NCBI GenBank assembly: GCA_017483805.1
Contig: JAFUUL010000031.1
Location: forward strand, 1 to 41,817
Length of the DNA stretch: 41,817 nucleotides
DNA from: Prevotella sp.
GTDB lineage: Bacteria; Bacteroidota; Bacteroidia; Bacteroidales; Bacteroidaceae
Direction: 5' to 3'
In this document: one piece after another, positions 11,360 to 14,217 of the stretch
Layout of the letters: each line of letters opens with the position of its first letter
Numbering within the stretch: the stretch's first letter is position 1
Translations under genes and position numbers: made by a program
The notes under the pieces: generated by a model
The model's database searches: none
What the model was told of the DNA's origin: nothing
What the model saw: the letters and a program-made list of their open reading frames with translations, nothing else

Positions 11360-12016
11360 ATGAATTACGTCATTATCGTGGCAGGCGGCAAAGGCCTGCG
11401 CATGGGGGGCGACATTCCCAAGCAGTTCCTGCCCATTGGCGGACGGCCGGTGCTGATGCGAACCATTGAGCGGTTCCGCGACTACTCGGCCGACCTGCAG
11501 ATCATCCTGGTGCTGCCGAAGAGTCAGCAGGACTACTGGCGCGACCTGTGCGAGAAGTACAATTTCGCAGTAGCATATCTGCTGGCCGACGGCGGCGAGA
11601 CGCGCTTCCACTCCGTGCAAAACGGCCTGGCGCTCATCCCCGACGATGCCGAGGGCGTGGTGGGCGTCCACGACGGCGTGCGTCCGTTCGTCTCCATCGA
11701 GGTCATCCATGCCTGCTATGAGGCCGCACGAACAGCCAAAGCAGTTATCCCCGTCACCCCTGTCGTTGAGACCCTGCGGCATGTGGAGAAGGGGAATGTC
11801 TATCGCGCCGACTACCGACTGGTGCAGACCCCGCAATGCTTCGACATCCAACTGCTTAAGGCCGCCAACCGCCAGCCTTACAGCGATGCCTTCACCGACG
11901 ACGCCTCGGTGGTGGAAGCCTACGGCCACGCCGTAGCGATGGTCGACGGCAACCGCGAGAACATCAAGATCACAACCCCCTTCGACCTAAAAGTCGCCGA
12001 GACACTTATCGGATGA
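11360..12016 (+). CDS. ispD: 2-C-methyl-D-erythritol 4-phosphate cytidylyltransferase (IspD)
   Basis: A 218-aa enzyme of the MEP isoprenoid pathway that joins MEP and CTP to give CDP-ME. It starts with the nucleotide-binding loop [19 protein letters not shown] (about 5-23), followed by [10 protein letters not shown] and VQTPQCFD, the substrate-binding motifs. The length matches the family. The gene starts one base after the DJ-1/PfpI stop, and its own stop overlaps the recG start as ATGA, so the three genes form an operon. Confidence 0.96.
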
Positions 12017-14217
12017 ACATACTCGAACAGGACATCAAGTACCTGCCGGGCGTGGGGCCCAACCGCAGGAAGATGCTGAGCCAGGAACTCGGCATCGAGA
12101 CCTTTGGCGACCTGCTCGAATACTATCCCTACAAATACGTGGACCGCTCTAAGGTCTACACCATCCGCGAACTGACGGGCGACATGCCCTTCGTGCAGGT
12201 GGTGGGCCGCATCCTGAGTTTCGAGACCTTCGAGATGGGGCCGCGCAAGGAGCGCGTGGTGGCCCACTTCACCGACGGTACCGCCATCATGGACCTGGTG
12301 TGGTTCAATGGTGGCCGGTATGCCAAGCAGCACTATCTGATTGGCAAGGACTATCTGCTCTTCGGTCGCCCGTCGGTCTTCAACAACCGCATTCAGGTGC
12401 AGCATCCCGACCTGGACGATGCCTCGAAGGTAGACACCACCGCCATGGGTATGCAGCCCTACTACAACACCACGGAGAAGATGAAGAAGGCCGGCCTGAC
12501 CTCCCGTTCCGTAGAGCGTCTTACCAAGACGCTCATCACCCAACTGAAGGACCCTCTCCCCGAGACCATCCCTCCCTTCATCACCGCCCCGCTCCACCTG
12601 ATGGGGCGCGACCTGGCCCTGCGCACGCTGCACTATCCCCAAAACACCAAAGACCTGGAGAGGGCCCGTGTCCGCATGAAGTTCGAGGAACTCTTCTTCG
12701 TCCAACTAAATATATTAAGGTACGCGAGCGACCAGCGGCGCAAATATGCCGGCTTCGTCTTCAATCGCATTGGCGACATCTTCAACGACTTCTATGCCCA
12801 CAACCTGCCCTTCTCGCTGACCGGTGCCCAGAAGCGGGTGATGCGCGAGATTCGCCAGGACCTGTGCTCCGGCCGGCAGATGAACCGACTGCTGCAGGGC
12901 GACGTGGGCAGCGGCAAGACGCTGGTGGCCCTCATGACCATGCTCATCGCGCTGGACAACGGCTATCAGGCCTGCATCATGGCCCCCACGGAGATACTGG
13001 CCGAGCAGCACCTGGCCACCATCCAGGAGTTCCTGCGGGGAATGCCCGTCCGCGTAGAACTGCTCACCGGCATCGTCAAAGGCAAGCGCCGCCAGGAGGT
13101 GCTCGACGGCCTGCTCTCCGGCGAGGTGCAGATTCTGGTGGGCACCCACGCCGTCATCGAGGACACCGTGCAGTTCGCCCACCTGGGCCTGGTGGTCATC
13201 GACGAGCAGCACCGCTTCGGCGTGGCCCAGCGGGCCAAACTGTGGGAGAAGACTCTCCCCCAACCCCTCCCTGTAGGGAGGGGAGTAGATACCTCTGTGA
13301 GCACCAATTCCACCCATCGTGACACTAACTACTCCCCTCCCTCACAGGGAGGGGCTGGGAGAGAGTCTTTCCCCCATGTGCTGGTCATGACGGCCACTCC
13401 CATCCCCCGCACGCTGGCCATGACGCTCTACGGCGACCTCGATGTGAGCGTCATCGACGAACTGCCCCCCGGCCGCAAGCCCATCCTGACAAGCCACGTC
13501 TTCGACAACCGCATGACCTCGCTCTACGACGGCATCCGCCGCCAGATCCGCGAGGGCCGGCAGGTCTACATCGTCTTCCCGCTGATAGAGGAGAGCGCCA
13601 AGAGCGACCTGAAGAATCTGGAGCAGGGCTTCGAGGTGTTGCGCGAGGCCTTCCCCGAGTTCCGCCTGAGCAAGGTGCACGGCAAGATGAAGCCCAAGGA
13701 CAAGGAGGCCGAGATGCAGCGCTTCGTCAGCGGCGAGACCCAGATACTGGTGGCCACGACGGTCATCGAGGTGGGTGTCAACGTGCCCAACGCCTCGGTG
13801 ATGGTCATCCTCGATGCCCAGCGCTTCGGCCTCAGCCAACTCCACCAGTTGCGAGGCCGCGTGGGCCGCGGTGCCGACCAAAGTTTCTGCATCCTCGTGA
13901 CCAACTACAAACTCTCAGAGGAGACCCGCAAGCGCATCGACATCATGTGCGAGACCAACGACGGATTCCGCATCGCCGAGGCCGACCTCAAACTGCGCGG
14001 CCCGGGCGACCTGGAGGGCACGCAGCAGAGCGGCATGGCCTTCGACCTGAAGATAGCCGACATTGCCCGCGACGGCCAACTGGTGCAGATGGCCCGCGAC
14101 GAGGCCCAGAAGATCATCGACGAAGACCCGCTGTGCCAGTCGGCCAAGTACCAGATGCTGTGGAACCGACTGCGCGAACTGCGCAAGACAAATGTTAATT
14201 GGGCCGCCATTTCGTAG
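12013..14217 (+). CDS. recG: ATP-dependent DNA helicase RecG, carrying an in-frame palindromic insertion
   Basis: A 734-aa branched-DNA helicase that regresses stalled forks and processes recombination intermediates. The N-terminal wedge domain (about 1-230) is followed by a superfamily 2 helicase core: Walker [16 protein letters not shown] (about 295-310), motif [13 protein letters not shown], motif [16 protein letters not shown], and motif [15 protein letters not shown]. Between motif II and motif III, after LWEK, about 39 extra residues are encoded by a 117-bp inverted-repeat element. Without them the length would be about 695, normal for RecG. The frame is open throughout, so the protein is probably made, with an extra Pro/Gly-rich surface loop. 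Confidence 0.95.
13251..13367. repeat. 117-bp palindromic element inserted in frame in recG
   Basis: The left arm (13251-13288) and right arm (13329-13367) are almost perfect reverse complements of about 38 bases, with only a few differences; each arm also holds its own smaller palindrome (CCCCTCCCT ... AGGGAGGGG). A 40-base centre separates them. The length is divisible by three and the frame used has no stop. This is a mobile-palindrome type of structure comparable to the Rickettsia palindromic elements that insert into coding genes. Confidence 0.88.

Follow-up and report, generated by a model that had tools for sequence, protein, structure and literature searches.

The window analyzed here is a 41,817-nucleotide stretch from Prevotella sp., which makes up contig C171 of a 3.63-Mb draft genome (92% complete, 7% contamination). 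On its plus strand, recG runs from position 12013 to 14217 as one uninterrupted frame of 734 codons, and the product is identified as RecG by NCBIfam profile NF008165 (866.7 bits against a cutoff of 711). The profile match is split into two stretches, the better of which begins at residue 451. An inverted-repeat element of 117 nt (positions 13251 to 13367, plus strand) lies in frame within the gene, in agreement with the coordinates and open frame in the first-pass annotation. The element lies before the sequence TATPIPRT; the sequences flanking the insert, of which this is the second, we take to be helicase motifs II and III, and the earlier placement of the site between these motifs was right.

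The element consists of two units in inverted order. The left unit (13250 to 13294) comprises AGACTCTCCCCCAAC, a palindromic core at 13265 to 13282 and GAGTAGATAC, and the right unit (13326 to 13368) comprises TAACTACTC, a palindromic core at 13335 to 13353 and GCTGGGAGAGAGTCT; the inner limits of both units are approximate. Between them lies a middle segment (13295 to 13325) that is mostly unpaired in the predicted fold and of which genome G142 carries a diverged version. The arms, first described as about 38 bases long, extend over 40 nt (13244 to 13283 and 13335 to 13374) and are 80% complementary without gaps, and an inner arm pair (13275 to 13291 and 13326 to 13342) reaches 94%. Each arm also contains the nested palindrome CCCCTCCCT/AGGGAGGGG, as originally noted. 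The predicted RNA fold has a free energy of −75 kcal/mol compared with −40.6 (standard deviation [SD], 3.9) for shuffled sequences (z = −8.8; none of 200 shuffles as good), and the DNA fold gives a z of −8.9. When the window was searched for the core CCCTCCCTNNNAGGGAGGG with up to two mismatches, one occurrence was found against 0.03 expected; the left core, which carries a 2-nt loop, is missed by this search.

In the protein encoded here, the loop from LW to PH(V/I) is 42 residues long, compared with 6 to 19 residues (mostly 6) in 42 of 45 other loops from the genus. These 45 comprise 29 same-genus relatives, the best 29 from a search of 59 genomes besides our own, and 16 loops from 18 further genomes that were chosen for carrying the element or its candidate mover. 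All of the first 29 lack the insert, and the three long loops (G142, G072, and G097) came from the 18 chosen genomes. G142, whose RecG is the closest found at 97% identity, shares the insert, with palindrome and frame both preserved; in G072 the element is a relative in which the left unit is duplicated, and G097 carries an unrelated palindrome at the same spot. The Thermotoga RecG (1gm5) has 4 residues at this place, compared with 41 in our protein. The 39 residues are thus not conserved in RecG across the order, and the 42 short relatives rule out a native loop, so the first-pass annotation's reading of the element as inserted, in a loop whose variable length shows that it accepts extra residues, is borne out by presence and absence among relatives. 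Its statement that 39 codons were added without a stop or frame change stands for stop and frame, but the net gain is 23 to 36 residues rather than a clean 39, so some residues of the native loop have been replaced or changed.

Our recG and that of G142 differ at 13 of 117 sites within the element and at 118 of 2,085 in the rest of the gene. Changed codons are more often nonsynonymous in the element (6 of 13) than elsewhere in recG (18 of 106), which makes the insert look like a tolerated loop. Judged from these sequences, the element is under less constraint than the remainder of recG, and the RecG loop is a repeated landing place for inserts.

As the first-pass annotation had proposed, we searched the genome for other copies of the arms, and the element proved to be multicopy. 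A BLAST search with the element returned 98 rows over both strands, a lower bound on the number of places (40 of 54 first-look candidates scored), and the core palindrome was found at 45 places compared with none for a reversed control. Parsing yielded 66 cores in 40 sites, 4 of which were dropped as likely representing the same locus on duplicate contigs, leaving 36 distinct sites. The contig pairs concerned (C9/C66, C32/C138, C121/C152, and C150/C169) are perhaps strain variants or contamination. Left (L) and right (R) units are mirror images of each other, and single units also occur. Within 230 nt, the unit order was L-R in 91 cases, R-L in 3, and unclassified in 7 (a raw count that includes overlapping loci), whereas at 230 to 1,200 nt the order was mixed (9 and 10).

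Across 150 genomes of the genus, the exact core was present in 41 (our own included) at 1 to 91 copies, although this pattern can miss variants such as the recG element of G072. A longer exact pattern, searched in 198 genomes of the order, occurred in our genome only and was absent from the 197 others, all of which lie outside the genus. In a named-genome collection, a stricter pattern matched at least 104 stretches. Among the 80 stretches listed, the titles were Prevotella, Prevotellaceae, Bacteroidaceae, Bacteroidales, or Xylanibacter, with many ruminant samples, and the exact unit is present in Xylanibacter brevis ATCC 19188 and Prevotella sp. tc2-28. The middles do not appear to share a common cargo, as a BLAST comparison of 73 middles produced 24 rows, and half or more of these join copies at seemingly the same gene. 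Tandem copies of the unit's outer end were seen at three loci (L055, L002, and L010; NRLSPNRLSPNRLSP, GGESVGGESV, and ESVESVESV), and these sequences suggest slippage at the element ends.

We then counted how many copies lie inside genes, another check proposed at the outset. We defined a spanning frame as one that crosses the whole site and stays open, stop to stop, for 200 codons or more. Such a frame was found at 29 of the 36 sites in our genome, compared with 47% under random placement and 83% for length-matched native DNA (P = 4 × 10−5). With the stop-to-stop definition, some of the 29 frames begin inside the element (RNase HII and an MFS gene), and two, at C15:9995 and C183:12509, lack a Pfam match and could be shadow frames. 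Among public loci, with sites within 700 nt of a contig end left out, 56 of 101 lay in a long spanning frame, compared with 40% at random and 79% for native DNA (P = 0.0015), so a good part of the public sites fall outside genes or out of frame. A Pfam family was assigned to 26 of 30 spanning frames scanned, which cover 31 of the 36 sites; on contigs C59 and C62 the second-longest frame was used since it read as the real gene. Among the host genes are those encoding DnaG, GltB (two pairs), a MiaB-type protein, KdtA, DsbD, CbiD, RsmF, a PglZ response regulator, an M3 peptidase, GH67, and GH115. The 5′ unit is in its one stop-free frame in 47 of 56 internal pairs, a count that we leave out of the evidence, the internal pairs having been selected for an open frame.

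Alignment of the host protein with relatives G050, G018, or G034 was possible at 18 of the 21 sites tried, and many relatives have a short native loop. G050 carries the same units at CbiD, GH115, and one of the gltB pairs, and other loops, such as those of DnaG and DsbD in G050, hold other repeats or other elements. In gltB (L061), the L and R units of both pairs flank conserved segments encoded by the host gene, with core-to-core distances of 156 and 225 nt, and the movement of a single L-middle-R piece does not explain this arrangement. In G034 and G050, other elements occupy these gltB loops. The recG of G097 (L279) and the gltB of G034 (L099) hold, in the same loops, a further palindromic family that is unrelated to the first (coding for PPSSPEG or EAPSGAVGGAS). 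Low-complexity stretches (e.g., SPLSSLHSPLSPLHSSL and SGEKRGERREES) occupy the same protein loops at three G034 loci (L131, L132, and L138).

Pairs of units also occur around start codons. We scored a pair as a start-codon pair when an ATG between L and R opened a frame of at least 100 codons beyond R and no frame spanned the pair. After 7 of 95 pairs near contig ends were dropped, 24 of the 88 usable pairs had this arrangement, compared with 229 of 3,733 (6.1%) placements of the same geometry at random; the resulting P value (4 × 10−10) is too good because the 24 pairs amount to about 17 genes by our own grouping. Some calls are on the wrong strand, at least that on C196 of our genome, where the real gene shows the same arrangement. 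The genes, named from sequence and only in part by family search, include those for RNase HII, IlvN, a GyrB/ParE-like protein, a dihydrolipoamide dehydrogenase-like protein, SufB, SufD, and a sugar kinase-like protein. The arrangement recurs at the genes for RNase HII (our genome, L145, and L193), IlvN (our genome, L163, and G050), SufB (two cases), SufD (three), and the sugar kinase-like protein (four), and the left unit at SufB has kept its palindrome while its sequence differs. The gene preceding ilvN in G050 terminates at a TAG supplied by the TAGACTC end of the element.

In 9 of the 24 start pairs, no ATG, GTG, or TTG occurs within 20 codons past the right core, so the right unit must be translated if the downstream sequence is; in the remaining pairs, a later start is possible. 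Element-free relatives have an ordinary start at RNase HII (G050, G018, and G034), IlvN (G018), the GyrB/ParE-like protein (G034 and G050), and the dehydrogenase (G018 and G050). The predicted folds of five start pairs range from −54 to −91 kcal/mol. At two loci (L265 and L267), leaders free of the element carry short ATG-containing tandem repeats just before the start (e.g., GTTCAATGGTCAATGTTCAATG).

Regarding mobility, we saw no excess of target duplication: of 84 pairs, 2 had direct repeats of at least 4 nt, with 1.7 expected by chance. The outer arms match slightly better within than between pairs (26 of 2,000 permutations were as good for our genome and 1 of 2,000 for the public loci), and the inner arms show no within-pair excess. 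A 423-residue protein, L062, contains DHVH and YVKDNP, which we read as Y1-type motifs. L062-like proteins were found in 36 of 41 core-bearing genomes compared with 44 of 109 others, and the Fisher P value of 10−7 overstates the link because L062 was chosen after being noticed in high-copy genomes and the genomes are related; the E value of 0.001 also admits remote kin. Five core-bearing genomes had no L062-like match. Pfam Y1_Tnp members at large were not significantly associated with the core at a threshold of at least one copy (28 of 41 versus 60 of 109). No element copies were found beside the two Y1 genes of our genome, its homologue on C81, or the genes of G142 and G062. Unrelated hairpins of 11 to 13 bp lie near the G142 Y1 gene and the C81 homologue; the one in G142 (L248:3388-3420) has a 12-bp stem about 90 nt upstream of the L062-like gene and could be a REP-like site of that Y1 gene itself. 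The co-occurrence makes the L062-type protein a candidate mover of the element.

The best-known examples of palindromes that code for protein come from Rickettsia and Wolbachia. The Rickettsia palindromic elements (RPEs) are reported as multicopy palindromes of 100 to 150 bp, inserted in frame in unrelated conserved genes, and among Rickettsia japonica orthologues, members of different RPE groups have been found close together, a pattern the authors attribute to hotspots or divergence (PMC10969869, PMC3767692, PMC2229807). For Gmk, the RPE insert is reported to be kept in the active product (PMC2229807). The recG element, with its 117 bp and z of −8.8, falls within this range of palindromes, and its family likewise occurs in frame in unrelated conserved genes (29 of 36 sites; 26 of 30 frames with Pfam families). 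Being multicopy and mostly within open frames, the family thus does resemble RPEs in these features, as first suggested. It differs from them in its Prevotella-type hosts, in being built of two units that can occur apart and that each form a hairpin, and in its frequent placement around start codons.

The Prevotella units also resemble certain REPs in forming inverted dimers (91 L-R versus 3 R-L within 230 nt). The GTAG tag of REPs sits at the 5′ foot of the hairpin, whereas in the Prevotella units GTAG, where present, is on the 3′ side (13 of 46 own units and 64 of 190 units), and the copies are not mainly intergenic (29 of 36 own and 56 of 101 public sites in a long spanning frame). Among intragenic REPs of the GTAG/CGTC type, inverted dimers of small hairpins are described, some coding for 20 to 30 protein residues, several lying in replication and repair genes, and some with ends that can supply a TAG stop (PMC3733652). 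The candidate Y1 gene in our case is not flanked by copies at the five genes examined and is linked to them by co-occurrence only. We set aside an assignment to the GTAG class of REPs on account of the tag position, the mostly open-frame sites in our genome, and the absence of copies beside these Y1 genes. Subclass 2.6 of the TnpA-Y1 proteins, from Bacteroidetes, comprises Y1/HUH proteins with dispersed atypical hairpins that flank the gene (PMC6006769), unlike the element described here, which does not flank a Y1 gene. PINSR of Prevotella intermedia and Prevotella nigrescens is likewise a highly amplified short Prevotella repeat, but it is 188 bp long, intergenic, free of terminal inverted repeats, and judged non-protein-coding by its authors (PMC4755523), and is a different thing. 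Inverted repeats inside protein genes have also been described in Nematomorpha, there in mitochondria (PMC6649704). In the titles and abstract openings of the open-licence literature, we found no report of protein-coding palindromes in Prevotella. On these features, the best reading is that the family works like RPEs and intragenic REP dimers, and we file it as neither.

Several other accounts of the element must be weighed. A classical DDE-type MITE, with terminal inverted repeats mobilized by the transposase of a full-length IS, would have inverted arms and might show the better outer-arm match within pairs, yet with target duplication at chance level in 84 pairs, we set it aside as quite unlikely. 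A native origin of the 39 residues, or an assembly error, is barely credible: the draft genome does have 7% contamination, but 42 of 45 relatives lack the residues and G142 has the same insert in frame. An account in which RecG stays normal, because the insert is excised at the mRNA level (RNase III could act on the duplex) or because the ribosome skips it, is also very improbable. Long RNA duplexes of such a kind are cut by RNase III, and a hairpin of −75 kcal/mol is very stable; however, sites fall in open spanning frames beyond random expectation, an excess that would be needless if the insert were untranslated, and the gltB stretch between units codes for conserved protein.

The start-codon pairs raise the alternative that the elements have been co-opted as RNA or translation signals, with long mRNA hairpins governing transcript stability or, in pairs around a start codon, holding the ATG exposed in a loop. 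Their frequency, their repetition at the same gene in different genomes, and the left unit at SufB, still palindromic despite its diverged sequence, would fit such a role, but the recG copy lies deep in the gene with codons less constrained than the rest, and the start pairs reduce to fewer genes, with some on the wrong strand; we regard this account as doubtful. A portable translation-start module seems to us unlikely. In this reading, the ATG of many core genes in Prevotella-type bacteria would lie in an open loop between the palindromes, the right unit would serve as an N-terminal tag, and control or insulation of initiation would be the reason that different species have kept the arrangement at the same genes.

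The recG element is a palindromic member of a repeat family, absent at this site from most relatives, in frame, and free of target duplication, and it leaves recG open. The element and its family are probably a nonautonomous, multicopy mobile twin palindrome whose surviving copies sit in frame and would be translated into loops that the host proteins tolerate. On this explanation, the nonautonomous element would consist of a pair of palindromic units, each about 45 bp long and inverted relative to one another, and a Y1/HUH single-strand transposase of the L062 type would act on the hairpins in trans. Entry into the variable recG loop would have taken place in the common ancestor of our species and G142. 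Gene-breaking insertions would be lost, leaving survivors in open frames, in loops, linkers, and start regions. The recG insert would then remain in the mRNA, and its translation would give RecG an additional flexible loop, which the protein tolerates.

Mobile DNA thus appears to add extra loops to everyday bacterial proteins. With dozens of coding palindromes per Prevotella-type genome, present also in named isolates, and with filled and short alleles of the same gene available in close relatives, the family offers a system for testing the effects of inserts on proteins and mRNAs. It also shows where core enzymes have loops that naturally take up insertions. Beyond what a single window could show, the family reveals that mobile hairpins are linked to start codons in a way that was not anticipated.
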